A stretch of 64,000 nt of DNA from Bifidobacterium mellis (GTDB taxonomy: Bacteria; Actinomycetota; Actinomycetes; Actinomycetales; Bifidobacteriaceae): the NCBI RefSeq assembly GCF_000967265.1, contig NZ_KQ033885.1, positions 248,001 through 312,000 on the forward strand, read 5' to 3'. The translations under genes and the position numbers were made by a program. The notes beneath the pieces are model-generated. The model was not told where the DNA came from, ran no database searches, and saw nothing but the letters and a program-made list of their open reading frames with translations. Below, piece after piece: positions 30,924 to 58,575 of the stretch; positions within the stretch are counted from its first letter, which is position 1; the number at the start of each line of letters is the position of its first letter.

Positions 30924-31610
30924 ATGGGGCAGGCCAGAAAAGTGGTTGTGGCCACGCACAACGAGGGCAAACTCAGTGAGTTTCGTCGCATCCTCGGCGG
31001 TTTCCTGGCCGATGAGGGTCAGAGGATCGAGCTGGTTTCGGCCGGCCAGTTGGGCCTGCCCGATCCGGTAGAGACGGGCACCACTTTTCAGGAGAATGCA
31101 CTTCTCAAGGCTGGGCAGGCCGCTCGGGAGTCAGGTCTGCCCGCGCTGGCGGACGACTCGGGGCTGGTCGTTGATGTGATGGGCGCTGCCCCGGGAATCC
31201 TTTCGGCACGGTGGAGCGGCCGCCACGGTGATGACCAGGCCAACTTGGAGCTCTTGCTGAACCAGCTGAACGACATTCCCGACGACCACAGAGGAGGGCG
31301 GTTTATCTGTGCTGCTGCCCTGGTCGTTCCGGATGTGCCGGGGTATGCCGTCCGGGGGTCTCAGGTGACCAGGGTCGGCGAGATGCCCGGAAGCATCATC
31401 CGCCAGGCGCGAGGGGACAATGGGTTCGGCTACGACCCGATCTTCGTGCCCCTTGATCAGCCTCGGCGCGCCAGCGGCCAGCAGCCGCTGACTTCGGCGG
31501 AAATGACCGCGGATGAAAAGAACGCCATTTCGCACAGGGGCAAGGCCCTGGAGGCCATCATGCCGATTCTCGTCAACTGGGTGCTGGGCGGCGGCCACCT
31601 TAAAGGCTGA
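30924..31610 (+). CDS. rdgB: dITP/XTP pyrophosphatase
   Basis: A 228-residue Ham1-family enzyme that hydrolyses dITP and XTP to keep them out of DNA. Signatures are ATHNEGKLSEFR (T/N-xxK), ALADDSGLVVD, and GDNGFGYDPIF with the SHRGKAL ending. The start at 30924 has an AGGAGG site. It is the last ordinary gene before the tandem surface-protein array. Confidence 0.94.
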   Translation: MGQARKVVVATHNEGKLSEFRRILGGFLADEGQRIELVSAGQLGLPDPVETGTTFQENALLKAGQAARESGLPALADDSGLVVDVMGAAPGILSARWSGRHGDDQANLELLLNQLNDIPDDHRGGRFICAAALVVPDVPGYAVRGSQVTRVGEMPGSIIRQARGDNGFGYDPIFVPLDQPRRASGQQPLTSAEMTADEKNAISHRGKALEAIMPILVNWVLGGGHLKG

Positions 31611-31701
31611 TAAATCCATATAGATTCCGTACGGTGAACGGTCGCGAAACATCAACGATCCTGTTCTGAGTACCGGTTGCACTTGAGCATGCAAGGAAAC
31701 G

Positions 31702-31730
31702 CGAAGGTGCGATTTTTTTATCTCTATGAT
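31702..31730 (+). promoter_or_regulatory. Candidate promoter of surface protein copy 1
   Basis: TATGAT at 31725-31730 follows a T-run and TCTC. The identical stretch TTTTTTTATCTCTATGAT occurs before copy 4, with the -10 at 41577-41582. No clear -35 is seen. Copies 2 and 3 have diverged versions. Confidence 0.4.
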
Positions 31731-31813
31731 ACAGTCTGCGGTATTGGGGACAACTTAAAAACAGAGCCGATCTGTTCTATCAGATGATTCCATCGGGATT
31801 TGGGGGTTTCGTA

Positions 31814-34750
31814 TTGAAGCGATTGCAAGAACGGAACAATAAGGGATCACTGCATATGAACCGTTCGATCATCGCCATTCTGATAACCCTTCTGGCGACG
31901 CTGGCCATGGTTGTTCCGCTTGGGTTGAGCGCTCTTTCGGCCAGTCAGGCCAATGCCATCGATGGACAGGATGAAACGGCGAGCAGGAAGCCCCTGCTCT
32001 ATAGGATGATGGCCTTCAACGACAGGATCGATACCTATCAGGATGAGCTGCGCATGGACTTCATCCTGCGGGTAAAACACAACGAGTTCAAGCCGGATTG
32101 TGTCGACCTTGGTAAGGCAGACACCGGTGGTAAGTCAAATTGCAATTTATCTTTTGTATATCAGTATGTTGGTTCTGATAACCCTGCAGATTATCATCGT
32201 GTAAAGTATATAAACACTATAACTCCAGATGATTATCTTGAAAATAACAAAACTGGGTATGCATATGATGGAGCTACAGCGTGGGCTGATAATCATCTGC
32301 AGCGCTTTACTGTTCATAAGGTAATCAATTCGGGTTTATACGACTACTTGACCATATCCATCGAAGGCGACATGAACATTGCGGATAAGTCTAAAGATCC
32401 CGCAAAGTTCGTGGCTGGTGGTCACCCTGAGCCCTTGAATGTCTTTGCTATCGTTGGTGATCAGAATACCGCCCTGTCTTGCGGTAGTTCTTCGTGGGCA
32501 TGGGGTACCGAAACCTGCTCAACTTTCGATCCAGCCTCCATGAGTGATTTACAGGCTCAGGATAGATATTCAAATATCACCGAGAGTTTATCGAAGGATA
32601 AACAGATGAAAGTGTATATGGGTGACTGCTTGGGTAGCGGAGGAGACGACCTGCAATGCAGCGGCCCATATTCCTGGGTTGGGTGGGACAGCAACCCATA
32701 TCTCTATCGAAACCATCAGGCTAATTGGGGTATGGTGACCGATTATGGTTTTCCGGCTTATAGCGATGGTACGGTTGGAAATATAAATGCCACAGCCCCA
32801 GGCACGGCCCCGGCACGGTCTTTCTTCGTGTATTGGATGAACTTGCGCGGTCCAGGCAACAAAACCAATGGCATATGTTCTGAGACCAGTTCCTATTACT
32901 ATCAGTGGGTGGCTCTTAAGGACAGCCAGTGGGTGCCTGTTAAGGAACTGACTCCTGAGCCGGTCCTGGTGACAGGCCAGCAGCCGAGTCCCAACACTTT
33001 GACTACCACCTACGGACTGCAGGGCATGGTCAATACCAATGGCGCTTATAACGTTAATCCGACTGACCCAAAGTATGCGAATACCACCAACGTGCTTTTT
33101 GCGACTGATAAGGATGGCAATCCTATGCCTGCTCAGAAGGCTGATGGCGGGATTGATTTCAAGGAGGCCAAGGAGAAGCAGGATCTTGACGGCTATTTCA
33201 AGCTGGTGACCTGGCCTGACACCAGGAATTCTGATGGCACGGAATGTACAGCCGTCAGCCCTGAGGTGTACAGCCCCAAGAGCGCTGGTCTTGTGGGGAT
33301 TGACGATAACATGTCCGCCGCGCAAAAGGATACGAATCTCTCTGCGGGTTGGACGATTGATACTGCTTTTTATAAGTATAATGTGCCGCGTCCTGATGAT
33401 CCGACAATCACCAAGATCCAGAATGATGCGGATGCCGGCTTGGATGCTTCTGGGGGCGTGTATACGTCGAAGCTTGACCCGATAATCAGTGGTGAGTGCA
33501 CGCCTTCCAAGGATGAGAAGCATCCCAATACGGTTGTTCTATATGGAGAGGATCCCACCAATCCGATTGCGGATGGGCAGGGCACAAATGGCGATGACTT
33601 GGTGAAAAGCTCGGACACGTGGGGGTTCAGGCTGGGGGAAGCTGTTTGCGAGACCGACACTGGCAGCAAGCAGGGAGGGTCCTGGTGGATACAGGACACC
33701 AATAAGCGGTATCCGTCGCCGGACCCCGGCAACAAGTACAACGGCTACAGGCGTTATCACGCCTGGGTGGTTGAGTCCACGTCAGGGTTCGGCTTGACCT
33801 CCTACTTCTCGAATGTCGGCACGGCTTATTTCGTCTCGGGAGAAAACGTCCCGGATGCGAGCAAGTTCTCGGTGACAGTGCCCCATACGGTCAACGGGAG
33901 CCTGCCGACAGGTTCGGTGGTCACGTTCAAGGGTGAGGTGTCGCCTGTGTATACGGCCTGGTCCTCGGGGAAGTTGGGGATGACTGATTCGAGGATGGTC
34001 GTTTCGATGAAGCAGAATGCTGCCTCGGATTGGATGCCCCTGTTGACCACTCCGGCCAACACCTTCCAGAGGGATGCGGCGGTCGGCACTGCTCCTTCCG
34101 TCACTGACCCCACATCAGGTCTCACGCTGAACCTGACCAAGACGGCGGCTTCCACCTGGTCCTGGTCGCTGAACATCCCTGCTGACAAGTTCACCGGTTA
34201 CAACGGTGACGACGAAACGCAGACCTATACTTTCCAGGTTGAGATGATCAACCCGATGAACCTCCGTTCGGGCCCGGCGTCCATCGAGCGGAAGATCGAC
34301 ATGACGCCCACCACGCTGACCATTGACCGCCATGACGTCTTCCAGGTGGCCGGCAGGGCCTACAAGTATGTGGACGGGGACAGGAAGATTCCTGAGACCA
34401 AAGGCACCCTGGTCCATATAACCTGGCCCGGCAAGACCAATAGCAGCACTGATGTCGCAGTGGGGGATCAGGGTTCGTGGCAGGCAACTCCGCCTGAGGG
34501 CGTCAATCAGGGGCAGTTCTCTGCTCAGGTGCTTTCGGATGATGCCGAGGGCTCTGACGCGCAGGGTCGGTTCCAGGGCGGGAACCAGTCAGCCTCGGTG
34601 TCGCATGAGCTGGACTTCCGGCCTTCGACCTCCTCCTTGCCGCTTACCGGGGGATGGCCGCTTTCCGTGCTCAGGATCCTGCTGCTGATAGCCCTAGGCC
34701 TGGTCGGCTTCGTGGCCTGCCTGAGGAACAGGCAGGAAAGCCGCCACTGA
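31814..34750 (+). CDS. Tandem surface protein copy 1, LPLTG-anchored
   Basis: A 978-residue secreted cell-wall protein of a family I do not recognise. Signal sequence: basic start, hydrophobic helix at ~18-40, likely cut after ANA (residue 48). The ectodomain has ten cysteines (96, 110, 223, 235, 272, 282, 355, 478, 562, 612). A conserved core includes ELRMDFILRVKHNEF and QANWGMVTDYGFP. The GC-rich C-terminal third looks like one or two beta-sandwich domains. The end is LPLTG (942-946), a hydrophobic helix and a basic tail, so a sortase should anchor it to peptidoglycan. The TTG start is the one shared by all four copies behind a poly-G Shine-Dalgarno; an in-frame ATG at 31784 exists. GC drops to 33% in 32161-32220 and is 65% in 34621-34680 by my count. 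An adhesin or ligand-binding role is inferred. Confidence 0.85.
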   Translation: MKRLQERNNKGSLHMNRSIIAILITLLATLAMVVPLGLSALSASQANAIDGQDETASRKPLLYRMMAFNDRIDTYQDELRMDFILRVKHNEFKPDCVDLGKADTGGKSNCNLSFVYQYVGSDNPADYHRVKYINTITPDDYLENNKTGYAYDGATAWADNHLQRFTVHKVINSGLYDYLTISIEGDMNIADKSKDPAKFVAGGHPEPLNVFAIVGDQNTALSCGSSSWAWGTETCSTFDPASMSDLQAQDRYSNITESLSKDKQMKVYMGDCLGSGGDDLQCSGPYSWVGWDSNPYLYRNHQANWGMVTDYGFPAYSDGTVGNINATAPGTAPARSFFVYWMNLRGPGNKTNGICSETSSYYYQWVALKDSQWVPVKELTPEPVLVTGQQPSPNTLTTTYGLQGMVNTNGAYNVNPTDPKYANTTNVLFATDKDGNPMPAQKADGGIDFKEAKEKQDLDGYFKLVTWPDTRNSDGTECTAVSPEVYSPKSAGLVGIDDNMSAAQKDTNLSAGWTIDTAFYKYNVPRPDDPTITKIQNDADAGLDASGGVYTSKLDPIISGECTPSKDEKHPNTVVLYGEDPTNPIADGQGTNGDDLVKSSDTWGFRLGEAVCETDTGSKQGGSWWIQDTNKRYPSPDPGNKYNGYRRYHAWVVESTSGFGLTSYFSNVGTAYFVSGENVPDASKFSVTVPHTVNGSLPTGSVVTFKGEVSPVYTAWSSGKLGMTDSRMVVSMKQNAASDWMPLLTTPANTFQRDAAVGTAPSVTDPTSGLTLNLTKTAASTWSWSLNIPADKFTGYNGDDETQTYTFQVEMINPMNLRSGPASIERKIDMTPTTLTIDRHDVFQVAGRAYKYVDGDRKIPETKGTLVHITWPGKTNSSTDVAVGDQGSWQATPPEGVNQGQFSAQVLSDDAEGSDAQGRFQGGNQSASVSHELDFRPSTSSLPLTGGWPLSVLRILLLIALGLVGFVACLRNRQESRH

Positions 34751-34765
34751 CCTCGGTCGTATAAG

Positions 34766-34823
34766 ACAGGGCCCGCCCTCATCTTTCCAATTTCATGGAG
34801 ATGAGCGCGGGCCCTGTTTTTTT
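34766..34823 (+). terminator. Terminator after surface protein copy 1
   Basis: An 11-bp GC-rich outer stem (ACAGGGCCCGC with GCGGGCCCTGT) and an inner CTCATCT/AGATGAG stem are followed by seven T's. Confidence 0.88.
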
Positions 34824-34836
34824 AATTCCCGTGTTG

Positions 34837-34894
34837 CTGCCGTTGCCAAGGCAGTGTTCGCCCCCAATCCAGACCGGTCGGAAGACGACAACAT
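34837..34894 (-). pseudogene. Relic of the tRNA-Leu/tRNA-Thr tail behind copy 1
   Basis: CTGCCGTTG (34837) matches the spacer between the two real tRNAs at 44741. The 39 bases from 34859 match those just after tRNA-Thr (from 44844) at 30 positions without gaps. The tRNA bodies are gone. The remainder of this 375-base gap up to copy 2 holds only the copy 2 leader, with a weak TATGTG in place of the TATGAT box. Confidence 0.55.
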
Positions 34895-35125
34895 TTTGCC
34901 TCTCGCAGCTGGGTACTGGCCCTGCCGTGGTCAAGAACTTGAACGGACGCAAAACACCCCACCTGAATCCCAGATTATGCCCTTGACTTCTGTAGCCTTG
35001 GAAAGGCAAAGAAAATTTATATGCATTGTTGTGCTCTATGTGTAGTTGCCTTAATTGGGGGTAGGTCAAAAGCAGACTTGATTTGTTCTGGAGCATGATT
35101 TCATTGTGGTTTGGGGGGTATTGTA

Positions 35126-38029
35126 TTGAAGCGTTTGCAGGAACGGGACGCTAATGGTCCACAGCGTGTGAGCCGTCCGATAATCGCCGTTCTGGTAACT
35201 CTTCTGGCGACGCTGGCCATGGTTGTTCCGCTTGGGCTGAGCGCCCTATCGGCCAATCAGGCCAATGCCATTGATGGGCAGGACGAAACAGCCAGCAGGA
35301 AGCCCAAACTCTATCGGATGTTGGGCTACAACAACAAGCTTGATTCCTATCAGGATGAGCTGCGCATGGACTTCATCCTGCGTGTGAAACACAACGAGTT
35401 TGACCCTTCTTGCGCCGACGCCACTTCTGGTGCCGATACCAAGGGCAATTGCAATCTGGCCTTTGTCTATCAGTACAAGGGGTCAGATGACACTTCCTTT
35501 TATCGCAGAATAAAGTATCTGAACACCATAGCCTCAGCATCATCCTCGGATCAGCCCTGGTCCGGAGCCTACAAGTGGGCGCAAAATCAAGATGAGTATT
35601 TCACCGTGCACACCATAATAAACTCCGGTTTATATGACTATCTGACCATTTCCATTGAGGGTGATCTGGCGCTGAAGAATTCTGCTGATGCGTCATATTA
35701 CCAACCGGGTGGGGCCAACGAGCCGGTGAATATCTATGCAGTCGTTGGTAAACAGGACGATGCACTGTCCTGCCTTCGTCCTGGTAATTCGTGGAGCTGG
35801 AGCACCGGAATCGATAATTGTCGCAATTTTGACCCTGAAACCATGATCAATGCGCCGGACAGGGTATCCAACATTACTTCAACTTTAGCGGCGAACGACA
35901 AAAACTTCACTTTGTATATGCAAGAATGCCTGGGCACGGGCGCTGATCTTCAGTGCAGCGGCCCGTATTCTTGGGTTGGTTGGAACAGCAACCCAAATCT
36001 CTACGGAGGCAATCAGGCTAACTGGGGCATGGTGACGGATTACGGTTTTCCTGATTATAAGAGCAATGCTACTGGGCCAATCGCCGGCACTGCTCCGGGA
36101 ACAGCTCCGGCACGGTCGTTCTTCGTGTACTGGCTCAATGTGCGCGGCAGCACTAGAGATAATCCTGATGGCATATGTTCTGAGACCAATTCCTATTATT
36201 ATCAGTGGGTGGCTCTGAAGGATAGCGAGTGGGTGCCTGTTGATGAGCTGACTCCCGAGCCGGTCCTGGTGACAGGCCAGCAGCCGTCCCCCAATACGGT
36301 CACCACCACGACTGGCAAGGCGGCCCAAGTCAGCAAGTATTCCGCTTTCAATTTGCCCAAACAGCCCAGCAATCCCAATGAGATGTTTGCCACTGACAGG
36401 AACGGCCAGCCTATGCCTGCCCAGAAGGCTGATGGCGGGATTGATTTCAAGGAGGCCAAGGAGAAGCAGGATCTTGACGGCTATTTCAAGATGGTCACCT
36501 GGCCTGTCACCACGAATCGGGACGGCAACGCTTGTACCGTCAGTCCTGAAGTGTACAACCCTGATCAGAAAGGTCTCGTCGGTATACGTGACGGTATGAA
36601 CAGCTCGGATATAGAACGGAATATTGCTGCGGGCTGGACGATCAATAGTGCCTTTTATAAGTATGATGTGCCTCGTCCTGATGATCCGACGATCACGAAG
36701 ATTGAGAACGATGCCGGCAGCGCTCTGGATGCTTCGGGCAGTGTGTATACGTCGAAGCTTGATCCGGTGGTCAGTGGTGAGTGTACGCCTTCCAAGGATG
36801 CCGCGCGCCCCAACAAGGTTGTTCTCTACGGCGAGGACCCAGCCAATCCGATTGCGGAGGGGCAGGGCACGAATGGCGATGACCTGGTGAAGGGGACGGA
36901 CACGTGGGGGTTCAGGCTGGGCGAGGCTGAGTGCCAGGTCGATCCCAAGAGCAAGCAGGGCGGTTCCTGGCGGATACAGGACACGAACAAGCTGTATCCG
37001 TCGCCGGATCCTGGCAACAAGTACAGCGGCTACAGGCGTTACCATGCCTGGGTGATCGAGTCCATCTCCGGATTCGGTTTGACCTCCTATTTCTCGAACA
37101 TCGGGACGGCCTATTTCGTTTCGGGGGAGAACGTCCCGGATGCGAGCAAACTCTCGGTCACGGTGCCTCATACGGTCAACGGGAGCCTGCCCGCAGGTTC
37201 GGTGGTCACGTTCAAGGGTGAAGTGTCTCCTGTATATACTGCCTGGTCCTCAGGAGGGCTGGGGATGACGGATTCGAGCATGGCTGTTTCGATGAAGCAG
37301 AAGACTGCCTCGGACTGGACGCCCCTGCTGACCACTCCGGCCAGCACATTCCAGAGGGATGCAGCGGCCGGTACCACGTCTTCCGTCGCGGATTCCGCGA
37401 CGGGCCTTACGCTGGGCTTGACCAAGACGGCGGCTTCCACCTGGTCTTGGACGCTGAACATCCCTGCTGACAGGTTCAGCGGCTACGACGGCAGCGACGA
37501 GACACAACTGTATGATTTCCGCGTTGAAATGGTCAACCCGATGAACCTCCGTTCGGGCCCGGCATCCATCGAGCGGAAGGTCGACATGACGCCCACCGCG
37601 TTGACCTTGGAGCGGTATGACGTCTTCCAGGTGGCGGGGAAAGCCTATAAGTATGTGGACGGGGACAGGAAGGTTCCCGAGACCAAAGGCACCCTGGTGC
37701 ATGTGACCTGGCCCGGCGGCAGTGGTACGGATGTCGTCGTGGGGGACGAAGGTTCGTGGCAGGCGGTTCCTCCTGAGGGCATCAACCAGGGGCAGTTCTC
37801 TGCTCAGGTGCTTTCGGATGATGCTGAGGGTGCTGACGCGCAGGGCAGGTTCCAGGGCGGGAACCAGTCGGCCTCGGTGTCGCATGAGCTGGAGTTCCGT
37901 CCTTCCAACTCGGCTTTGCCTCTTACCGGGGGATGGCCGCTTTCCGTGCTCAGAATCCTGCTGCTGATATCTCTTGGCCTGGTGGGCTTCGTGGCCTGTT
38001 TGAGGAACAGGCAGGAAAGCCGGCACTGA
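35126..38029 (+). CDS. Tandem surface protein copy 2, LPLTG-anchored
   Basis: A 967-residue paralogue of copy 1 with the same plan: signal peptide, ten ectodomain cysteines at equivalent places, conserved core, C-terminal beta-rich part, then LPLTG, a membrane helix and a RNRQESRH tail. The first intercysteine loop (CADATSGADTKGNC) and the one at LSCLRPGNSW differ from the other copies. From about 36040 on it is nearly identical to copy 4 over long stretches, including GPIAGTAPGTAPARSFF. It starts at TTG behind TTGGGGGGTA. The hairpin after its stop has lost the T-run. Confidence 0.85.
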   Translation: MKRLQERDANGPQRVSRPIIAVLVTLLATLAMVVPLGLSALSANQANAIDGQDETASRKPKLYRMLGYNNKLDSYQDELRMDFILRVKHNEFDPSCADATSGADTKGNCNLAFVYQYKGSDDTSFYRRIKYLNTIASASSSDQPWSGAYKWAQNQDEYFTVHTIINSGLYDYLTISIEGDLALKNSADASYYQPGGANEPVNIYAVVGKQDDALSCLRPGNSWSWSTGIDNCRNFDPETMINAPDRVSNITSTLAANDKNFTLYMQECLGTGADLQCSGPYSWVGWNSNPNLYGGNQANWGMVTDYGFPDYKSNATGPIAGTAPGTAPARSFFVYWLNVRGSTRDNPDGICSETNSYYYQWVALKDSEWVPVDELTPEPVLVTGQQPSPNTVTTTTGKAAQVSKYSAFNLPKQPSNPNEMFATDRNGQPMPAQKADGGIDFKEAKEKQDLDGYFKMVTWPVTTNRDGNACTVSPEVYNPDQKGLVGIRDGMNSSDIERNIAAGWTINSAFYKYDVPRPDDPTITKIENDAGSALDASGSVYTSKLDPVVSGECTPSKDAARPNKVVLYGEDPANPIAEGQGTNGDDLVKGTDTWGFRLGEAECQVDPKSKQGGSWRIQDTNKLYPSPDPGNKYSGYRRYHAWVIESISGFGLTSYFSNIGTAYFVSGENVPDASKLSVTVPHTVNGSLPAGSVVTFKGEVSPVYTAWSSGGLGMTDSSMAVSMKQKTASDWTPLLTTPASTFQRDAAAGTTSSVADSATGLTLGLTKTAASTWSWTLNIPADRFSGYDGSDETQLYDFRVEMVNPMNLRSGPASIERKVDMTPTALTLERYDVFQVAGKAYKYVDGDRKVPETKGTLVHVTWPGGSGTDVVVGDEGSWQAVPPEGINQGQFSAQVLSDDAEGADAQGRFQGGNQSASVSHELEFRPSNSALPLTGGWPLSVLRILLLISLGLVGFVACLRNRQESRH

Positions 38030-38045
38030 CCCCGGCAGCATCAGA

Positions 38046-38092
38046 CAGGACCCGCCCCCGCCCCATGAAGTTGAGAGGATGAGTGGGGCCCT
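38046..38092 (+). terminator. Degenerate terminator after copy 2
   Basis: The position and arms (CAGG...GCCCCA with TGGGGCCCTG) match the strong hairpin after copy 1, but mismatches have accumulated and no T-run follows. It is probably weak, so transcription may continue into copy 3. The following ~250 bases hold a CTGCCGTTGCCA relic of the tRNA spacer and a repeat of the copy-type leader (GGTCGCGAAACACCC), but no gene. Confidence 0.5.
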
Positions 38093-38349
38093 GCCGTTGC
38101 CAGTCACCCCCACCCCTAACTCAGACTGTTCTTAGTCAAGACTAAGGACGGTCGCGAAACACCCTATCTGAATCCCAGATCACGCTTTCAGTCTCGGTAC
38201 TCTTAAAGCATGTAAAGGGGACAAGAAGATGCCATAAGTGAGGATGCGGTACTTGTGCTCCAGGGTTTCGTGGCCTGCACCGGGGACAGTCAAGCGTGCA
38301 GTCCATCTGATTCTGGAGATGGTTGCATTGAGGTGTGGGGGGTAACGTG

Positions 38350-41247
38350 TTGAACCGATTGCAAGAACGGGGCAATAAGGGTCCACGGCATGTGGATCGC
38401 CCTATAGTGGCTGTTTTGATAACCCTTTTGGCGACGTTGGCCATGGTTGTTCCGCTAGGGCTGAGTGCGCTTTCGGCCAATCAGGCCAATGCCATCGATG
38501 GGCAGGGCGGGACGGCCAGCAGGAAGCCTCTGCTCTATAAGATGTTGGCCTACAATGACAAGATTGATTCATACCAGGATGAACTGCGGATGGATTTTAT
38601 CCTGCGCGTGAGACATAACGATTTCAATCCGCAATGCGTACCGATGCGTGATACTTCTCCTTATGATTCAGTAAAGTGCAATTTGTCTTTCGCATATCAG
38701 TTTGAAGGAGCGCAAAATCCGTCTCACTATCGCAGGATACGGTATCTGAATACTATTTCGACAAACCCTAACGACCCTACTGGCGGTGCTGAGCAATGGG
38801 CGGAAAACGAGGCCGAGTTCTTTACGGTTCATAAAGTAATCAACTCTGGTTTATATGACTTCCTCGCTGTATCCATAGAGGGTGATTTGTCCTATATGGA
38901 TACTTCCAAGGATCCGAAATATTATGTCACCGGCGGTTATCCGGAACCTTTGAACGTCTACGCAATTGTTGGTCAGCAAAACAATACGCTGTCGTGTGGA
39001 AGTTCTCCATGGACTTCTCCATGGGACTACACTACGAATGACTGCACCTTCGATCCCAGCACTATCAGCAGTAACGTCCAAGACAGGGTTGCAAATATCA
39101 CTGCAGACCAGGGCAGGGGCATCAAGCTGTATATGGGCAACTGCCTAGGTGATAGTCCCCATCCTCAGTGCAGCGGACCCGGTTCTTGGGTTGGCTGGGA
39201 CGGTAATCCCCCTCTTTATGGTGGTCACCAGGCCAATTGGGGCATGGTAACGGATTATGGATTCCCTATAGGAGATAAGCCGGTTCCAGGAGTGGCACCC
39301 CCCAAATCCTTCTTTGTATACTGGTTCAATTTGCGTGGAAATAACAGCGCTGGTGGAATATGTTCCACGACCAACTCCTATTACTACCAATGGGTGGCGC
39401 AGAAGAATAGCCAATGGGTGCCTGTCGATGCGCTGACGCCTAAACCGGTGCTAGTAACTGGTCAGAAGCCAGCAGTAAACGGCTTGACCAGTTCCTGGGG
39501 TCTTCAATATCAGGTCAATGACAATACGGCATACAACGTCGATCCGACTGACCCCAAGTATGCGAATACCACCAACGTGCTTTTTGCGACTGATAAGGAT
39601 GGCCAGCCTATGCCTGCTCAGAAGGCTGATGGCGGGATTGATTTCAAGGAGGCCAAGGAGAAGCAGGATCTTGACGGTTATTTCAAACTAGTTACTTGGC
39701 CTGTCACTACTAATGACGATGGCACCCAGTGCAAGCCGACGGCAAGCACTCCCGAAGTCACCACTAAAATATACGACCCGCAACAGGATGATCTTGTTGG
39801 GATAACAGACGATATGTCTACAGCCCAGAAAAATACGAATCTGGATGCAGGATGGGTTATCGATACTGCATTCTATAAGTATGATGTGCCTCGTCCCGAC
39901 GATCCGACCATCACCAACATCCAGAATAATGCTGATGGCTCCTTGAATGCCTCGGGAAGCGTCTATACCGGCAAGCTTGATCCGGTGGTCAGCGGTGAGT
40001 GCACTCCCTCCAAAGACGACACGCATCCCAACACGGTTACTCTGTTCGGCGAGGATCCCGGCAATCCCTTCAAGGAGGGGCAGAGCAAGAGCAGCGACGA
40101 CCTGGTGAAAAGCTCGGACTCCTGGGGGTTCAGGCTGGGCGAGGCTGTATGCAAGGTCGATCCCAAGAGCAAACAGGGAGGGTCCTGGCAGATACAGGAC
40201 ACCAATAAGCAGTATCCGTCGCCGGATCCCGGCAATAAGTACAACGGTTACAGGCGCTATCATGCCTGGGTGACCGAGTCCGCCTCCGGGTTCGGCCTGA
40301 CCTCCTTCTTCTCGAACATAGGAACAGCCTATTTCGTCTCCAACGAGAATGCTCCGGATGGCAAGCTCTCCGTCACAGTGCCCCACACGAAAAACGGGAT
40401 TCTGCCGGCAAACTCGGTCGTCACCTTCAAAGGCACTGTTTCGCCTATAAATATGGCCTGGTCCTCGGGTGGGCTGGGGATGACTGATTCCAGGCTGGCC
40501 ATTTCCATGAAGCAGAATGCTGCCTCGGACTGGACGCCCCTGCTGACCACTCCGGCCAACACCTTCCAACGGGATGCGGCGGTCGGCACTGCTTCTTCCG
40601 CCGCGGATTCCGCCTCGGGACTCACGTTGAATCTCACGAAGACGGCGGCTTCCACCTGGTCCTGGACCTTGACCATATCGGCTGACAGATTCACCGGTTA
40701 CAACGGCGACGACGAAACGCAAAAGTATACCTTCCAGGTCAAGATGATCAACCCTCTGAATGTCCCTTCGGACCCGGCTTCCATCAACCGGACGGTCGAC
40801 ATGACGCCGACCACGCTGACCTTGGAGCGGTACGATATCTTCCAGGTAGCAGGCAAGGCCTATAAGTATGTCAACGGAAACATCAGGGTTCCTGAGACCA
40901 AAGGGACTCTGGTCCATATAACCTGGCCCGGCAACAGCAGCACAGATGTCGCCGTGGGAGACCAGGGTTCATGGCAGGCGACTCCGCCTGAGGGGATAAA
41001 CCAGGGAAAATTCACCGCTCAGGTTTCTTCCGATGATGCCGAAAGCGCTGATACTCAAAGCAGCAACTTCCGAGGTGGAAACGAGTCGGCTGCGGTGTCA
41101 CACGCACTGGAATTCCGGCCCTCCACCTCATCCCTGCCCTTCGCCGGAGGATGGCCGCTTTCCGTGCTCAGGATCCTGCTGATGTTGATACTGGGTCTGG
41201 CTGGCTTTGTGGCCTGCCTGAGGAATAGGCAGGAGAGCCGATACTGA
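38350..41247 (+). CDS. Tandem surface protein copy 3, variant LPFAG signal
   Basis: A 965-residue paralogue, the most divergent of the four. It keeps the signal peptide, ten ectodomain cysteines, the KADGGIDFKEAKEKQDLDGYF block and the C-terminal domains. The sorting motif is LPFAG (41134-41148) where the others have LPLTG, so the threonine whose carbonyl a sortase attacks is alanine. The hydrophobic helix and RNRQESRY tail remain. It may be anchored poorly, by a different sortase, or held by its membrane helix. It starts at TTG behind GTGGGGGGTA. The leader is the least conserved of the four, without an obvious TATGAT box. Confidence 0.85.
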   Translation: MNRLQERGNKGPRHVDRPIVAVLITLLATLAMVVPLGLSALSANQANAIDGQGGTASRKPLLYKMLAYNDKIDSYQDELRMDFILRVRHNDFNPQCVPMRDTSPYDSVKCNLSFAYQFEGAQNPSHYRRIRYLNTISTNPNDPTGGAEQWAENEAEFFTVHKVINSGLYDFLAVSIEGDLSYMDTSKDPKYYVTGGYPEPLNVYAIVGQQNNTLSCGSSPWTSPWDYTTNDCTFDPSTISSNVQDRVANITADQGRGIKLYMGNCLGDSPHPQCSGPGSWVGWDGNPPLYGGHQANWGMVTDYGFPIGDKPVPGVAPPKSFFVYWFNLRGNNSAGGICSTTNSYYYQWVAQKNSQWVPVDALTPKPVLVTGQKPAVNGLTSSWGLQYQVNDNTAYNVDPTDPKYANTTNVLFATDKDGQPMPAQKADGGIDFKEAKEKQDLDGYFKLVTWPVTTNDDGTQCKPTASTPEVTTKIYDPQQDDLVGITDDMSTAQKNTNLDAGWVIDTAFYKYDVPRPDDPTITNIQNNADGSLNASGSVYTGKLDPVVSGECTPSKDDTHPNTVTLFGEDPGNPFKEGQSKSSDDLVKSSDSWGFRLGEAVCKVDPKSKQGGSWQIQDTNKQYPSPDPGNKYNGYRRYHAWVTESASGFGLTSFFSNIGTAYFVSNENAPDGKLSVTVPHTKNGILPANSVVTFKGTVSPINMAWSSGGLGMTDSRLAISMKQNAASDWTPLLTTPANTFQRDAAVGTASSAADSASGLTLNLTKTAASTWSWTLTISADRFTGYNGDDETQKYTFQVKMINPLNVPSDPASINRTVDMTPTTLTLERYDIFQVAGKAYKYVNGNIRVPETKGTLVHITWPGNSSTDVAVGDQGSWQATPPEGINQGKFTAQVSSDDAESADTQSSNFRGGNESAAVSHALEFRPSTSSLPFAGGWPLSVLRILLMLILGLAGFVACLRNRQESRY
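41134..41148 (+). other. LPFAG sorting motif in copy 3
   Basis: Codons CTG CCC TTC GCC GGA encode L-P-F-A-G in the exact position of LPLTG in the three other copies. Confidence 0.9.
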
Positions 41248-41264
41248 TTTTCGGGCGGCATAAG

Positions 41265-41325
41265 GCAGGGCCTGTGCTCATCTCCGCGGAATTCGGGGGA
41301 TGAGGGCAGGCCCTGCTTGTGTTTC
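41265..41325 (+). terminator. Terminator after copy 3
   Basis: A 10-bp stem (GCAGGGCCTG at 41265 with CAGGCCCTGC ending at 41316), an inner CTCATC/GATGAG stem and a T-rich TTGTGTTT tail. The design is the same as after copy 1. Confidence 0.75.
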
Positions 41326-41329
41326 CTGT

Positions 41330-41451
41330 GCGCGAGATGGGACTCGAGCCCAGACATCTGAAGGACAGCTGGCGGGAGAGCCGCTTGACAGCGTCGAACT
41401 GTCTGCCTTTCCATGACAAGGTGGCCTCCCCGTCCAATTAGACCAGCCAGA
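41330..41451 (-). pseudogene. Decayed tRNA-Leu and tRNA-Thr copies behind copy 3
   Basis: On the minus strand, 41330-41360 matches the 3' part of the tRNA-Leu at 44647 (acceptor GCGCGAG and TTCGAGTCCCAT arm, here CTCGAGTCCCAT). 41379-41451 aligns with tRNA-Thr at 44768: the T-arm GACAG-TTCGACG-CTGTC is perfect, but the acceptor stem cannot pair and the anticodon arm is scrambled. The Leu anticodon half is missing. Neither can be a working tRNA. The remaining bases to copy 4 hold its leader and promoter. Confidence 0.75.
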
Positions 41452-41576
41452 TGAAGACCGTAAACGGTTGTGAAATGCCCTTCGTGAAACACCCTATGGG
41501 AATCCTGGATAATGCTTGCAATTCCAGTGCTCTTGGAGCATGTATGGAAAAGGCGAAGATGCTATTTTTTTATCTC

Positions 41577-41582
41577 TATGAT
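41577..41582 (+). promoter_or_regulatory. Candidate -10 box of surface protein copy 4
   Basis: TATGAT in a stretch identical to that before copy 1 (TTTTTTTATCTCTATGAT). The matching placement supports it as a promoter, but the -35 is unclear. Confidence 0.4.
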
Positions 41583-41665
41583 AGAGTCGAAACAGTTGGG
41601 GACAAATTAAAAGCAAAGTAGAGCCGCTCTAAAGGATAATTGTATCTTGATTTGGGGGTATTGTA

Positions 41666-44593
41666 TTGAAGCGATTGCAAGAACGGAGCGCCAAGGGTTC
41701 ACAGCGTGTGAGCCGTCAGATCATCGCCGTTCTGGTAACCCTTCTGGCGACGCTGGCCATGGTTATTCCGCTTGGTCTGAGCGCCCTTTCGGCTAATCAC
41801 GCCAATGCCATCGATGGACAGGACGAAACGGCCAGCAGAAAACCCCTGCTCTATAGGATGATGGCCTTCAACGACAGGATCGATGCCTACCAGGATGAGC
41901 TGCGCATGGACTTCATCCTGCGCGTGAAGCACAATGAATTTAAGCCGGATTGTGTCGGTGTTGGTGGGACTGACACCAAAAATCCGTCACAATGCAATTT
42001 ATCTTTCATATATCAGTTTGTTGGTTCCGAAAACCCTGACTATTACAGGCGCGTGCGGTATATGAACACTATCACCCCGGATGATTACGTAGACAGCAAT
42101 AAAAATGCCTACGCTTATGATGGTGCCTTAGCCTGGGCCAGGAACCAGGATGAGTTCTTCACCGTTCACAAGATCATCAATTCTGGTTTGTATGACTACC
42201 TGACCATTTCCATCGAAGGCGACATGAACATTAAGGATAAGTCTCCAGATCCCGCAAAATTTGTAGTTGGCGGTCACCCCGAGCCCTTGAATGTCTTTGC
42301 CATCGTTGGTGACCAGAATACCGCCCTGTCTTGTGGCAATTCTTCCTGGTCCTGGACTACCGATAACTGCACAAGCTTTGATCCGGCTTCCATGAGTGAT
42401 TTACAGGCTCAGGATAGATATTCAAATATCACAGCGAGCATGTCCCAGGATAAACAGATGAAAGTGTATATGGGTTACTGCCTGGATAGCAAAGCGGATA
42501 TGAAGTGCAGTGGCCCGTATTCCTGGGTCGGTTGGGACACCAACCCTAATCTCTATCAAAACAATCAGGCCAACTGGGGCATGGTGACGGATTATGGTTT
42601 CCCTGACTATAAGAGCAATGCTACTGGGCCAATCGCCGGCACTGCTCCGGGCACAGCTCCGGCGCGGTCTTTCTTCGTGTACTGGCTGAATCCGCGTGGC
42701 AGTACAAATGACAATCCTGATGGCATATGTTCTGAGACCAATTCCTACTATTACCAGTGGGTGGCTCTGAAGGATAGCGAGTGGGTGCCTGTCAATGAGC
42801 TGACCCCTGAGCCGATCCTGGTGACAGGCCAGCAGCCGTCCCCCAATACGGCGACTACCACGACCAGCAAGGCGTCCCAAGTCAGCAAGTATTCCGCTTT
42901 CAACGTGAGTCCGAAGGATCCTCAATATCTCGACAACCCCAACGTGCTTTTTGCCACTGACAAGGATGGCAATCCCATGCCTGCCCAGAAGGCTGATGGC
43001 GGGATTGATTTCAAGGAGGCCAAGGAGAAGCAGGATCTTGACGGCTATTTCAAGATGGTCACCTGGCCTGTCACCACGAATCGGGATGGCAGCGCTTGTA
43101 CCGTCAGCCCTGAAGTGTACAACCCCAAGAGCGCTGGTCTTGTAGGGATAAACGATGGTATGTCCACCGTGGAGAAGGATACGAATATCTCTGCGGGATG
43201 GACAATCAATAGCGCGTTCTATAAGTATGACGTGCCTCGTCCTGATGATCCGACGATCACGAAGATTGAGAACGATGCCGGCAGCGCTCTGGATGCTTCT
43301 GGAAGCGTGTATACGACCAAGCTTGATCCGGTAATCAGCGGTGAGTGTACGCCTTCCAAGGATCCTGCGCGTCCCAACACGGTTGTTCTCTACGGCGAGG
43401 ATCCCAATAATCCCATTGTGGAGGGGCAGGGCACGAATGGCGATGACCTGGTGAAAGGGACGGACACGTGGGGGTTCAGGCTGGGCGAGGCTGAGTGCCA
43501 GGTCGATCCCAAGAGCAAGCAGGGGGGTTCCTGGCGGATACAGGACACGAACAAGCTGTATCCGTCGCCGGATCCTGGCAACAAGTACAGCGGCTACAGG
43601 CGTTATCATGCCTGGGTGACTGAGTCTGTCTCCGGGTTCGGCCTGACCTCGTTCTTCTCGAATATTGGAACTGCCTATTTCGTTTCGGGAGAAAACGTCC
43701 CGGATGCCAGCAAGTTCTCGGTCACTGTGCCCCATACGGTCAACGGGAGCCTGCCGGCGGATTCGGTCGTTGTGTTCAAGGGTGAGGTGTCTCCTATATA
43801 TACAGCCTGGTCCTCAGGAGGGCTGGGGATGGCTGATTCGAGGATGGTCGTTTCGATAAAGCAGAAGACCGCGTCGGATTGGACGCCTTTGCTGACCACT
43901 CCGGCCAACACCTTCCAGAGGGATGCGGCTGCCGGCACTGTTTCTTCCGCCGAAGATTCCGCGACAGGTCTCACGCTGGGCTTGACCAAGACGACGTCTT
44001 CCACCTGGTCCTGGTTGCTGAATATCCCAGCTGATAAGTTCACAGGCTACACAGGTGGTGACGAGACGCAGACGTACGCCTTCCAGGTTGAGATGATCAA
44101 CCCGATGAACCTCCGTTCGGGCCCGGCATCCATCGAGCGGAAGATCGACATGACGCCCACCACGCTGACCATTGACCGCCATGACGTCTTCCAGGTGGCC
44201 GGCAGGGCCTACAAGTATGTGGACGGGGACAGGAAGATTCCTGAGACCAAGGGGACCATGGTGCATGTGACCTGGCCTGACAACACTGGCACGGATGTGG
44301 CTGTGGGGGACCAGGGCATTTGGCAGGCGGTCCCGCCTGAGGGAATGAAGCAGGGGGATGTCGCCGTCCAGGTGCTTTCGGATGATGCCGAGGGCCCTGA
44401 CGCGCAGGGCCGGTTCCAGGGCGGGAACCAGTCGGCCTCGGTGTCGCAGGTGCTGGAGTTCCGGCCTTCGACCTCCTCCCTGCCGCTTACCGGCGGATGG
44501 CCGCTTTCCGTGCTCAGGATTCTGCTGCTGATAGCCCTAGGCCTGGTGGGCTTCGTGGCCTGCCTGAGGAACAAGCAGGAAAGCCGACGCTGA
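41666..44593 (+). CDS. Tandem surface protein copy 4, LPLTG-anchored mosaic
   Basis: A 975-residue paralogue with signal peptide, ten ectodomain cysteines, conserved core, C-terminal domains, LPLTG, membrane helix and NKQESRR tail. Its sequence is a patchwork. Around 42250-42470 it is nearly identical to copy 1 (SMSDLQAQDRYSNIT, DKQMKVYMG). From about 42590 to 43620 it follows copy 2 (DYKSNATGPIAG, AECQVDPKSKQGG). Near 44100-44250 it matches copy 1 again (TIDRHDVFQVAGRAYKYVDG). This implies recombination among copies. It starts at TTG behind TTGGGGGTA. Confidence 0.85.
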   Translation: MKRLQERSAKGSQRVSRQIIAVLVTLLATLAMVIPLGLSALSANHANAIDGQDETASRKPLLYRMMAFNDRIDAYQDELRMDFILRVKHNEFKPDCVGVGGTDTKNPSQCNLSFIYQFVGSENPDYYRRVRYMNTITPDDYVDSNKNAYAYDGALAWARNQDEFFTVHKIINSGLYDYLTISIEGDMNIKDKSPDPAKFVVGGHPEPLNVFAIVGDQNTALSCGNSSWSWTTDNCTSFDPASMSDLQAQDRYSNITASMSQDKQMKVYMGYCLDSKADMKCSGPYSWVGWDTNPNLYQNNQANWGMVTDYGFPDYKSNATGPIAGTAPGTAPARSFFVYWLNPRGSTNDNPDGICSETNSYYYQWVALKDSEWVPVNELTPEPILVTGQQPSPNTATTTTSKASQVSKYSAFNVSPKDPQYLDNPNVLFATDKDGNPMPAQKADGGIDFKEAKEKQDLDGYFKMVTWPVTTNRDGSACTVSPEVYNPKSAGLVGINDGMSTVEKDTNISAGWTINSAFYKYDVPRPDDPTITKIENDAGSALDASGSVYTTKLDPVISGECTPSKDPARPNTVVLYGEDPNNPIVEGQGTNGDDLVKGTDTWGFRLGEAECQVDPKSKQGGSWRIQDTNKLYPSPDPGNKYSGYRRYHAWVTESVSGFGLTSFFSNIGTAYFVSGENVPDASKFSVTVPHTVNGSLPADSVVVFKGEVSPIYTAWSSGGLGMADSRMVVSIKQKTASDWTPLLTTPANTFQRDAAAGTVSSAEDSATGLTLGLTKTTSSTWSWLLNIPADKFTGYTGGDETQTYAFQVEMINPMNLRSGPASIERKIDMTPTTLTIDRHDVFQVAGRAYKYVDGDRKIPETKGTMVHVTWPDNTGTDVAVGDQGIWQAVPPEGMKQGDVAVQVLSDDAEGPDAQGRFQGGNQSASVSQVLEFRPSTSSLPLTGGWPLSVLRILLLIALGLVGFVACLRNKQESRR

Positions 44594-44608
44594 TCCCCGC
44601 AACGTAAG

Positions 44609-44638
44609 ACAGGGCCTGTTCTTGCGGGCCCTGTTTTT
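44609..44638 (+). terminator. Terminator after copy 4
   Basis: 8-bp stem ACAGGGCC/GGCCCTGT followed by TTTTT, just before the tRNA genes. Confidence 0.85.
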
Positions 44639-44646
44639 AATACCTG

Positions 44647-44727
44647 TGCGCGAGATGGGACTCGAACCCACACGTCCGAAGACACAGGAACCTAAATCCT
44701 GCGCGGCTACCATTACGCCACTCGCGC
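44647..44727 (-). tRNA. tRNA-Leu (anticodon UAG)
   Basis: An 81-base class II tRNA on the minus strand. The acceptor stem GCGCGAG/CTCGCGC, anticodon stem CAGGA/TCCTG with loop TTTAGGT (anticodon TAG), a long variable arm TGTCTTCGGACGT and the T-loop TTCGAGT are all present. The discriminator base is A, as leucine tRNAs need. CCA is not encoded. Confidence 0.95.
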
Positions 44728-44767
44728 GTACGACGTGCCCTGCCGTTGAAAGGGCAACTGGTGGAAG

Positions 44768-44840
44768 AGCCACTTGACAGAATCGAACTGTCGACCTTCT
44801 CATTACGAGTGAGACGCTCTGCCAACTGAGCTAAAGTGGC
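44768..44840 (-). tRNA. tRNA-Thr (anticodon CGU)
   Basis: A 73-base tRNA on the minus strand. The acceptor GCCACTT/AAGTGGC, D-arm with AGCTCAGTTGGCAGAGC, anticodon stem TCTCA/TGAGA with loop CTCGTAA (anticodon CGT) and T-arm GACAG-TTCGATT-CTGTC fold cleanly. It lies 40 bases from tRNA-Leu and is the intact model for the pseudo-tRNA at 41379. Confidence 0.95.
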
Positions 44841-44953
44841 CTTCGCCTCCCGTCCGGACCCGCCGGAAGAAGACAACATGCTACATCATACTGGATGTGC
44901 GGGATAAAAACGCCTTGGGCTTCAGGCCAAGGGTGTACAAGCTTCTTGACACA

Positions 44954-55368: not shown

Positions 55369-55554
55369 GATATTCGGCTTGTCGGTTTGCGTTGTCCCAA
55401 TTTTGTCGGTACAGTGATGATTAGGCAATGGGAACAGTGGCATGTCCCAAAGTTGACATATTGCCCACCCCCCTGAGTCGGGGAAGTGATCGGTTGGGGA
55501 GGCGAAGATGTGCCTGGCCATCCTGTGCCTATTAACAAAGAAGGGAATGCGTGC

Positions 55555-57555
55555 ATGCACATGCAACGAGATAATGAAGGGATAAGGCTCCCTAAGCTTT
55601 TAGGCTTGGCGGTTGCCGGAGCGACGCTCCTGGCGGGCATGGTCGTTTTGCCAGCCACCCAGGCTTCGGCCGCTGAAGACTATGGATATAATGCCGAAGA
55701 TGACTTCAGGCCGGGTGCAGTTCAGAGCGACGTGCACCCCCAACTGACAGTTACCAAGTACCTGTCGTTGGCTCAGGGGTACAGCCCCACGGGTTCTTCT
55801 AAGGATGCAGTCAAGTTGAACGCGAATGCCGACTTGGTTCCTGCCAAGGGCATTGCTTTCAATGTCAGGGAAGTCGTTCCCCAACCCGGTCAAAATCTAT
55901 CTGACATTAGTGCCTCGGATGAGAACACATATAAGGTCACGGCCAACTATATCGGTATCACTGACGGCCAAGGTGTGATCAATACCTGGTATCCGGCTGA
56001 CACTGCAACCAACGCTCCAGCGGTTGATATTTCAGATTCGTCGAAAGCTGTCAGCTTCCCTGGAGGTGCCAACCATTGGTACGTGCTGGTAGAGAATCGT
56101 GATGAGTCGCCGGCTTTCAAGGCTAACAATCCGAATAAGCTTGATAGCAACAAGTATCAAGATGCAGCACCGTCGTTCTTTGGTCTGCCTTATGCGGCTA
56201 ACTCACTCGATGCCACCGATACTGCAAGCCAGGTTCAAGGATACATTTACCATCTGCACCTGTATCCGAAGAACATGAACATCACGCAGTTCTCCAAGAC
56301 CGTCCAGTCGGTCAAGGATTCGCAGAATAATGTGAAGCCTCAGCGGACAGCTGTTGCTGGAGATACGATTAGCTACAAGCTGACTCAGAAGCTCTACAAC
56401 ACTGGCGCGAAGACACCAAAAGACGGCAAGCTTGATGTCAGTGAGCTGAATGGCGACGGTAAGGATCTGCGTATTGTTGATCGCATGTCCAGCTCTCTGA
56501 AGCTGAAGGGCGAATTCAAGGTTGTGCTTCATGCAGATGGAGTTGATGATGTGCAATTGGCTGAAGGTGCTACTGCTGATTATACGGAGTCACAGCCAAC
56601 ATCAAATCCTAACTCTTTTGGGGATAATAAGATGTTCGCCAATGAAGCCCCGAGCAGTAATGTATCTTATTACCAGTTTGATTTCTTCAATACTCTAACC
56701 AAAGTAAAGAACTTCACTCCAAAGGCTTTCCTGCTTGTCATAACTTATGATGCCACGGTCACTGGAGATGGTGATTCGACTGGCACCGATGGTGTGGCCA
56801 ACGATGCAGCTTCCGATTTCACCGAAAACGTTGACGCAGATGGTAACCACCAAGATCCCATTCGTGAGCATACGAATGTGATCAATGCTGTTATTGCTTT
56901 CGGTGCTGTGCAGAATGAAAAGACAAAGTTTGCAGCTCTGCCCGACACTGAGTTCCGTCTGATCAAGTCTGAGAAAGAGCCGGATGAGTATCTTGCATCT
57001 GATGGAAACTTCTATGCCGAGGGTAAGGTACCAGATGGTGTTCAGCTCTACAAGGCCACGGCCAACAAGAATGGTTTGGTAGCGTTCGCTGCTTTGCCTG
57101 TCTTCGGCACACCAGCTCCAGCACCTAGAGACGCCGGCAAGACAGTGCAGGCCGGCAATTGGCTGCTGAAAGAGACCAAGACCCCCAAGGATTGGCGTAA
57201 CCCTGGCATTCCCTTCCATACAGTAACATTTGGGGATGCCGGTAAGACTGAGGAGCAAGTCGCTCAGGAGTATGGACCTCATGCCACAATTCAGCCTGAT
57301 TATACAAAGCTTGGGTTTGGAAAGTTCGGAAGGACACCTAAGCAGATCACTGACGGTGGTGGCACAGCGATACAGTTCAATAATGTGCCAGTACAAACTT
57401 ACTTGGCACATTATGCGACTTCTGATGCTGATGCGCCTCTGGCCCTGCCTCTGACTGGTGGTCGTGGCATCCTGCTGCTGCTGGTTGTCGGTGCCCTGAT
57501 CATGGGTGGTGCCCTCTACGCCCGCAATCGGCGCAATAACGCCGCCCGGGCCTGA
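55555..57555 (+). CDS. FimA-type major pilin, LPLTG-anchored
   Basis: A 666-residue secreted pilus shaft protein. Signal peptide to about residue 39. The pilin motif IYHLHLYPKN with the polymerising Lys at 239 is present, with Cna-B-like beta domains. The E-box ETKTPKDW is near 540, and LPLTG at 631-635 is followed by a membrane helix and a basic tail. The class C sortase at 58733 should join the LPLTG Thr of one subunit to Lys239 of the next. The start at 55555 lies 9 bases after AAAGAAGGG; the frame is open from 55486 without support. It is less GC-rich than its neighbours. Adhesion to host or plant glycans is inferred. Confidence 0.88.
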   Translation: MHMQRDNEGIRLPKLLGLAVAGATLLAGMVVLPATQASAAEDYGYNAEDDFRPGAVQSDVHPQLTVTKYLSLAQGYSPTGSSKDAVKLNANADLVPAKGIAFNVREVVPQPGQNLSDISASDENTYKVTANYIGITDGQGVINTWYPADTATNAPAVDISDSSKAVSFPGGANHWYVLVENRDESPAFKANNPNKLDSNKYQDAAPSFFGLPYAANSLDATDTASQVQGYIYHLHLYPKNMNITQFSKTVQSVKDSQNNVKPQRTAVAGDTISYKLTQKLYNTGAKTPKDGKLDVSELNGDGKDLRIVDRMSSSLKLKGEFKVVLHADGVDDVQLAEGATADYTESQPTSNPNSFGDNKMFANEAPSSNVSYYQFDFFNTLTKVKNFTPKAFLLVITYDATVTGDGDSTGTDGVANDAASDFTENVDADGNHQDPIREHTNVINAVIAFGAVQNEKTKFAALPDTEFRLIKSEKEPDEYLASDGNFYAEGKVPDGVQLYKATANKNGLVAFAALPVFGTPAPAPRDAGKTVQAGNWLLKETKTPKDWRNPGIPFHTVTFGDAGKTEEQVAQEYGPHATIQPDYTKLGFGKFGRTPKQITDGGGTAIQFNNVPVQTYLAHYATSDADAPLALPLTGGRGILLLLVVGALIMGGALYARNRRNNAARA

Positions 57556-57744: not shown

Positions 57745-58575
57745 ATGAAGGGAATTGCCTTGCCGAAATGCCTCACCCACCGGGTCCTGCCCTGTCTGAT
57801 CGCGGCTTTGGCCTGTTTAGGTCTCACCGCTTTCGATATGACGCCGGCGGCAGAGGCGGAGACGGTCAACCCGACCCTGACGGTGCAACTCAAGAGAGGG
57901 CATTCAGGTCAAGGTGGTCAGAACGACATCCTGCCGAGTGCTCCTGTATCTGCTGGAGCAGGGTATGTCTTTCGTGCCTTGAAGCTGGATGCCGGTACTC
58001 TGAAGAGCCGGGTGGAGGCACTAGACCACAATCCTGGCGCTGATAAGGCACAGGCGGCCATCAGCAATGAGGTTGCAGCCAACCCAGATGCTTTCAAGGA
58101 CAAGACACAACCCGCTGAATACTACGGTGTCTCTGATCAAAATGGCACTATAACCAACGCATCAGAAGCCAAATCACAAGGTGTCTGGCTTACAGGAGCC
58201 AATCTTGATTTAGACGCATCCAGTCTGACCGGAGGTAGTCCCGCTGTTTTTGATGGCGACTATTTCCATGCTTCATACTGGTTGGTCACCCTGGTAGCCA
58301 CACCCAAGAATGCAAAGGTAAAAACCGATCCAGTGGTCGTACAGTTGCCGCTCTACCGCGAGCAGGGTGAAGTCCATCCACTTTATGATGTGACTATAAG
58401 CCCCAAACTTGTGGACATACCCCAGGTCGTCCCAGTCGTGCGATCTGGAGGTCATGGCAAGCTGGCAGCTACCGGCGTCTCCATGGTAGCGCCTGGTATT
58501 CTGCTTATAATCCTGGCCATGATGGGCCTCTACTTGGCGGTAGTCGCACGATCCTGGAACAGGGATGAGCGCTAG
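57745..58575 (+). CDS. Minor or basal pilin with LAATG sorting motif
   Basis: A 276-residue secreted protein: signal peptide to about residue 38 (AEAE), a beta-rich ectodomain, then LAATG (240-244), a membrane helix and a WNRDER tail. It has no clear pilin Lys motif, so it would cap or base a pilus rather than form the shaft. LAATG resembles the LAxTG signals used by class E housekeeping sortases in actinobacteria, so this subunit may be the wall anchor. GGAAGGGAAGG precedes the ATG. It lies between shaft pilin and sortase genes. Confidence 0.75.
   Translation: MKGIALPKCLTHRVLPCLIAALACLGLTAFDMTPAAEAETVNPTLTVQLKRGHSGQGGQNDILPSAPVSAGAGYVFRALKLDAGTLKSRVEALDHNPGADKAQAAISNEVAANPDAFKDKTQPAEYYGVSDQNGTITNASEAKSQGVWLTGANLDLDASSLTGGSPAVFDGDYFHASYWLVTLVATPKNAKVKTDPVVVQLPLYREQGEVHPLYDVTISPKLVDIPQVVPVVRSGGHGKLAATGVSMVAPGILLIILAMMGLYLAVVARSWNRDER

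Follow-up and report, generated by a model that had tools for sequence, protein, structure and literature searches.

The tandem array at positions 31814-44593 of the window (the whole 64,000-nucleotide stretch of Bifidobacterium mellis DNA analyzed here) is, in the reading to which we lean, a bank of alternative adhesins of the tip-pilin type, detached from their own operon and served by the shaft and sortase that remain in the genome. The evidence comes from the gene neighborhoods of the family in related bacteria, from the divergence of the proteins region by region, and from the position of the nearby pilus locus, designated pilus B.

Results

The array comprises four complete genes with conserved TTG starts

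As the original prediction had it, the array is made up of four complete open reading frames arranged head to tail, encoding LPxTG-type proteins of 965-978 residues, with copies 2-4 aligning to copy 1 at 73-80% identity (Table 1). Its GC content is 51-58%, versus 60-67% for most of its surroundings. Position 31814, where the original prediction began, is a TTG. This codon occupies the equivalent start site in all 43 whole copies found in 12 genomes of the same genus, and a G-tract lies 6-7 nt upstream of it (5 G in 17 copies, 6 G in 25 and 11 G in one). Internal ATG/GTG codons were considered as alternative starts and rejected, since they read GTA, GCA, GCG or GTC in several copies whereas the TTG is conserved in every one; hence, together with the conserved G-tract, we adopted the TTG starts.

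Table 1. Window coordinates of the array genes, the modules of copy 1 and the genes of pilus B
Feature	Position	Strand	Basis
G-tract, 5 G, 7 nt before the copy 1 TTG, probable ribosome-binding site	31802..31806	+	
Copy 1, array position 1, LPLTGG sorting signal	31814..34750	+	ORF, conserved TTG start, alignment
N-terminal exchangeable module of copy 1, ~residues 91-525 from TTG, Cys-rich, no family match	32084..33388	+	edges transferred from alleles at position 4 in other species
Ig/FnIII-like beta-sandwich stalk of copy 1	33392..34624	+	structure model, VIA-align, profile match to Bap domain
Cell-wall sorting signal of copy 1, 37 residues (LPLTGGWPL... with hydrophobic stretch and basic tail)	34637..34747	+	
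Copy 2, grouping with array position 3 of five-copy species, LPLTGG	35126..38029	+	ORF, TTG start, tree
Copy 3, grouping with array position 4, LPFAGG	38350..41247	+	ORF, TTG start, tree
Copy 4, grouping with the last array position, LPLTGG	41666..44593	+	ORF, TTG start, tree
Pilus B probable shaft pilin, LPLTGG	55486..57555	+	SpaH/EbpB-type match of 79.9 bits (cut-off 95); HLYPKN by eye
Pilus B small pilin-like protein, LAATG motif, probable base pilin	57745..58575	+	
Pilus B class C sortase, 499 residues	58733..60232	+	sole one above the model cut-off in the genome

In B. breve UCC2003, slippage of G-tracts inside pilus genes switches pilus expression (PMC9187656). Phase variation through the G-tract was rejected as a general property of the array: 42 of the 43 tracts consist of 5-6 G, so that only the 11-G copy looks prone to slippage. 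This tract precedes array copy 2 of G004 (B. apousia; L044 ~5239-5249).

Each protein begins with a signal peptide ending at about ...QANA (read by eye) and carries ten ectodomain cysteines, all of them present in 43/43 copies; an eleventh, inside the sorting signal, is present in 42. The 37-residue sorting signal, LP(L/F)(T/A)GGWPL..., is likewise whole in 42 of the 43 copies, reading LPLTGG in 34 and LPFAGG in eight. The signal peptide that had been described for the four window proteins is confirmed, and the ten cysteines and, in all but one copy, the sortase-type C-terminus hold across the genus sample. A leader and a terminator had also been ascribed to each copy. The leader stands, as ~150 nt upstream of each copy can be aligned between copies (judged by eye), but the terminator finds no support: we counted nine terminator-like sites in 31500-45000 against a shuffle mean of 10.7, i.e., no excess of intrinsic terminators between copies.

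Two copies appear to be decaying. Copy 4 of G010 (L046 5404-8208) stops within the sorting motif and would be unanchored, and the third copy of G011 (L047 9142-12028) is broken into three frames. Directly behind the window array, before manC, lie tRNA-Leu and tRNA-Thr genes (44646-44840, minus strand).

The array occupies the rdgB-manC interval of the asteroides clade

The nearest named relatives of the window genome are Bifidobacterium asteroides, B. choladohabitans, B. apousia, B. mizhiense and two further Bifidobacterium, all of them bee-gut bacteria. Within the genus, 20 of 27 genomes carry the family; within the bacterial family, 37 of 189 do, from 2 of its 16 genera. In an even sample of the order, 18 of 396 genomes gave a match; seven of the matching genomes belong to other bacterial families, and in six of them the match covers the C-terminal Ig-like part alone.

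Within the asteroides clade, the array is located between rdgB and manC. We defined the array clade as the 13 genomes whose rdgB is at least 84% identical, all of which carry the family in this interval. Three to six copies are present in nine of the 13: six in G020, five each in G003, G004, G007, G010 and G019, four in G000, four in G012 (one cut by a contig end) and three in G011 (one broken). G008, G009 and G022 have one copy each at rdgB-manC, while G025 is cut by contig ends. Compared between species, the family is thus not the uniformly single-copy, invariant gene that would have spoken against a repertoire; it ranges from one to six copies, and the types of its N-terminal module differ.

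Among the genomes listed, G013 and G018 have 0.5-0.6 kb between rdgB and manC, and other genes fill the interval in G006, G016, G017, G023 and G024; in G005, rdgB and manC are on different contigs. Several genes residing in family-less intervals (L085-L087 and L090; G023, G024, G016 and G017) have wall-sorting-like C-termini, and surface genes may therefore insert into this interval in general. Plasmid spread was considered and rejected, as 467 residues of the N-terminal half of copy 1 found no match among 72,556 plasmid records.

Relatives of the array genes adjoin shaft pilins and class C sortases

Outside the array, a shaft pilin and/or a class C sortase is adjacent to the family gene at 17 of 24 loci (both at 14, the shaft only at three, neither at seven), as counted with local profiles built from five shafts, including the pilus-B shaft, itself a sub-cut-off model match, and five sortases. 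Each locus entered the count a single time; L048 is an additional locus in a genome that also has the array. In species farther away, the gene of this family adjoins a shaft pilin of 622-714 residues and a class C sortase. When four loci were typed with public models, all four sortases scored above the class C cut-off, and all four shafts scored above the Pfam SpaA and GramPos_pilinBB cut-offs and below the SpaH/EbpB cut-off. At L061 and L062, one shaft and one sortase are flanked by two tip genes, and at L069, a shaft-only locus, a class C sortase is listed just beyond the DNA stretch read. As to the seven loci with neither gene, L067, L078, L081 and L082 have less than 2.2 kb of downstream DNA, such that a shaft may be cut off, whereas L064, L048 and L118 offer enough DNA to judge; the family protein can accordingly occur without an adjacent shaft.

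Judged by this neighborhood, the array family provides the large ancillary pilin of relatives' sortase pili, an identity that derives from the 17 of 24 loci with a shaft or class C sortase and not from domain libraries. The family had been called unrecognized, which remains apt for domain libraries but not for gene neighborhood. The ancillary pilin probably sits at the tip, considering its size, the gene order and the parallel with Actinomyces oris discussed below. YPK, which we take to be the shaft polymerization motif of pilins, occurs in none of the 43 array copies. A kinship with the large ancillary-slot gene of the other pilus locus of G009 was rejected, as 39 residues around the sorting signal align and nothing more.

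Sortase-dependent pilus loci of bifidobacteria are described in PMC7822027 as consisting of a major pilin, one or two ancillary pilins and a sortase. Relatives of the array proteins fill the ancillary-pilin slot of such loci; the array differs in having no shaft or sortase and in having its ancillary gene multiplied.

A separate pilus locus lies downstream of the array

At the array itself there is no shaft or class C sortase gene; the nearest lie 10.9 and 14.1 kb downstream, respectively, in the separate locus, pilus B. The shaft of this locus in the window matches no Pfam pilin model above cut-off. Twelve of the 13 array genomes have one class C sortase above cut-off and G009 has two, and in 13/13 one class C sortase domain begins 14.5-14.6 kb after the last array copy. 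No large tip gene was found beside pilus B in the three array-clade loci read (the window, L115 and L117). With the shaft of the rdgB-manC pilus as query, no match was obtained in 12 of the 13 array genomes and a 30% match at another locus was obtained in G009, in a search that also missed the pilus-B shafts and that remote paralogues would therefore escape. The second sortase of the window genome, the only such second sortase typed, is of class E. Near the pilus locus, the product of a further window gene (61265-62062) contains a GmrSD_C (HNH-type) nuclease domain, and genes of similar appearance are seen by eye near pilus B in L111, L112 and L117.

Comparing paralogues of one genome, in the eight genomes with at least three whole copies, we found the sorting signal to be the least diverged region (dN 0.05-0.09 versus 0.10-0.31 elsewhere), which fits a sorting partner shared by the copies. 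Among copies at one array position, the signal shows no special conservation (dN 0.008-0.072 versus 0.024-0.033 for the N-terminal module). The array consensus signal does not contain the literal FLIAG found in A. oris tips, and pilus B offers no known cognate tip for comparison. Proteins with RCC1 repeats, for which scoring 150 of 216 candidates in the window genome gave RCC1_2 matches numbering at least 150, end in LPLTG, LPRAG, LPKAG or LPQAG at several loci (e.g., L107, L108, L109 and L110); as they too end in LPxTG/LPxAG, the motif alone cannot single out the class C sortase.

The array was also considered as a relative of these RCC1 genes and rejected as such, because Pfam matched no RCC1 model in the four copies or in 49 family members. 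Tandem clusters of RCC1-repeat LPxTG proteins in bee bifidobacteria are described by Ellegaard et al. 2015 (PMC4449606), and RCC1 proteins are also named by Bottacini et al. 2012 (PMC3447821). The clusters resemble the array in being tandemly duplicated, wall-sorted proteins of the same bacteria that differ between strains; unlike it, they are located elsewhere in the genome and match RCC1 models. The accessible parts of the secretome and genome papers (PMC4015849, PMC3447821) do not name the array proteins, nor does that of PMC4449606 mention the family. No paper on the array was found in the literature searched, i.e., top-ranked results with few subscription papers, though a fimbriome survey (doi 10.1128/AEM.01295-17) may list the genes.

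The N-terminal module behaves as an exchangeable cassette on an Ig-like stalk

The original description of a divergent N-terminal and a conserved C-terminal half is borne out by mean identities between the window copies, calculated per 50 residues, of 43-77% in residues 101-400 and 73-88% from residue 501. Searches of Pfam and NCBIfam returned nothing above cut-off for the four copies, and PHROGs returned nothing under an E-value of 0.05 for the array family. In a Pfam search of 49 diverse members, Ig-like domains were the commonest matches, and no vWFA or thioester-type tip domain was matched in the N-terminal module. Significant matches to the PDB by sequence were limited to the stalk, and when the full structure model was compared using VIA-align, the Ig/FnIII stalk filled the best 50 matches, with no pilus-tip structure among these 50; this list bears on the stalk and carries no information about the N-terminal module. 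The C region of the biofilm-associated protein Bap (7dm0) is among the closest known systems, the likeness being a profile match of the stalk to the Bap domain. The N-terminal module itself matches no known adhesin domain or enzyme family above cut-off in sequence searches; over 68 members it contains 23 invariant columns, several of which are W, Y, D or R. In a second genus, two genes (L144 774-4835 and L129 253-4320) encode proteins of ~1355 residues with two tandem N-terminal modules.

The two halves also differ in their trees. In that of residues 50-410, the deep branches follow largely the array position, with shallow species differences within each, while residues 540-945 give a shallower tree with more mixing. 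Within a position, dS of the N-terminal module is 0.13-0.33, similar to the rdgB and manC means between the same eight species (0.21 and 0.22, respectively); between positions it rises to 1.2-2.3 in eight genomes, with 0.39 in G011. Given this difference, most N-module types look older than the species. They also look to be under purifying selection, with a dN/dS within type of 0.09-0.23, on which ground rapid diversifying selection was rejected.

Block-wise comparisons delimit the region that is exchanged. At position 4, DNA identity between G007 and G004, taken per 15 codons, is 82-93% up to ~residue 90, falls to 37-80% over ~91-511 (with two gapped blocks at 6 and 20%), rises to 91-100% over ~512-856 and then runs at 82-95% to the end. 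Overall, position-4 genes of two species share 51-66% DNA identity in the N-terminal module and 91-100% over the next ~345 codons. G003 and G010 present identical edges at this position. G022 and G009 have the N-terminal module in common (81-92%, residues 81-520), with a C-terminal half at 74-87%. A clade of all position-4 copies, chosen for the AU test after inspection of the tree, is rejected by the N-terminal data (p-AU 0.0044) and not by the C-terminal data (0.552). Moreover, C-terminal halves can be alike within a genome: copies 1 and 2 of G011 are 96-100% identical beyond ~residue 441, and copies 1 and 5 of G019 are 94-100% identical beyond ~residue 601. Going by these sequence comparisons, the N-terminal half (~91-511) behaves as an exchangeable cassette, replaced as a block.

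Discussion

A precedent for tips encoded away from their shaft is found in A. oris, in which FimB and CafA serve the FimA pilus as alternate tips, the CafA gene being unlinked to the cluster, and in which the sorting signal suffices for tip placement (PMC11389406). We liken the array to this system by organization: as reported in the same paper, the A. oris proteins are LPxTG tip adhesins with similar sorting signals, and CafA, encoded elsewhere, uses the shaft of the cluster. The array departs from it in its 3-6 tandem copies in most clade genomes, in having no literal FLIAG, in the lack of a tip gene adjacent to pilus B and in the replacement of its N-terminal module as a block.

Under the reading we favor, an array protein would leave the cell, fold, probably with disulfides, and be cleaved at its LP(L/F)(T/A)GG signal. 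The class C sortase of pilus B would most likely couple the cleaved protein to the first shaft subunit of this pilus, so that each pilus would carry one of four alternative tips, and the class E sortase would fix the LAATG base pilin. The C-terminal Ig-like stalk and the sorting signal would then serve as a constant frame, and the N-terminal module (~91-511) as the presumed ligand-binding cartridge, existing as old, discrete types that would be swapped through recombination within the frame on either side. What we infer in this scheme is the display on pilus B, adhesion and the identity of the ligand. As for its origin, we infer that the operon form is ancestral, and that the tip genes of the array clade lost their operon and multiplied.

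The chief competing explanation, which we consider rather unlikely though deserving of serious weight, is that the former tip pilins have turned into monomeric wall-anchored adhesins, each fixed singly to peptidoglycan by the class E sortase. An array without its own shaft or class C sortase gene would be expected of such proteins, the orphan single copies at L064, L048 and L118 and the unexceptional conservation of the sorting signal within a position are in line with it, and the RCC1 proteins of the window genome, with their similar ends, are presumably anchored in this way. It sits less easily with the sorting signal being the least diverged region between paralogues of one genome, and with the retention of the class C sortase in 13/13 array genomes, though pilus B alone could explain that retention. 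The surface-adhesin repertoire put forward in the original prediction fits the data, seeing that the gene has multiplied, that its products bear wall-sorting signals and that they vary in an outer N-terminal module which recombines as a unit; the decoy repertoire suggested alongside it has nothing specific in its favor.

Two further possibilities concern the module itself. Its types may be kept chiefly for evading recognition, be it by bee immune receptors, phage binding the protein or rival bacteria, instead of for ligand diversity. Old discrete types, purifying selection inside a type, saturated divergence between positions and block replacement would all agree with evasion; however, ligand specificity predicts the same pattern, and rapid point diversification is not seen, making this improbable in our estimation. 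We give still less credence, indeed very little, to the proteins being surface enzymes, e.g., pollen-glycan hydrolases with an unrecognized catalytic domain. The genus lives on pollen sugars, and invariant W, Y, D or R columns of the module could befit a catalytic site, yet no enzyme family is matched above cut-off and the genes associate with shaft and sortase genes in relatives.

Returning to the tip-pilin reading, a more far-reaching version of it, which we advance tentatively and would not call probable, holds that one shaft and sortase set serves 3-6 alternative tips, and that the outer tip module of ~420 residues is traded as a cassette between bee-gut Bifidobacterium species, within an unchanging frame of signal peptide, stalk and sorting signal, so that every strain would have a binding-specificity combination of its own. 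A bank of tip-type adhesins with discrete, exchangeable modules is a concrete, testable candidate for strain-specific attachment, bearing on how co-occurring Bifidobacterium species and strains divide the bee gut. It would also show how tip pilins can escape their operon and multiply, and its N-terminal module would provide a new family for structural and glycan-binding work.
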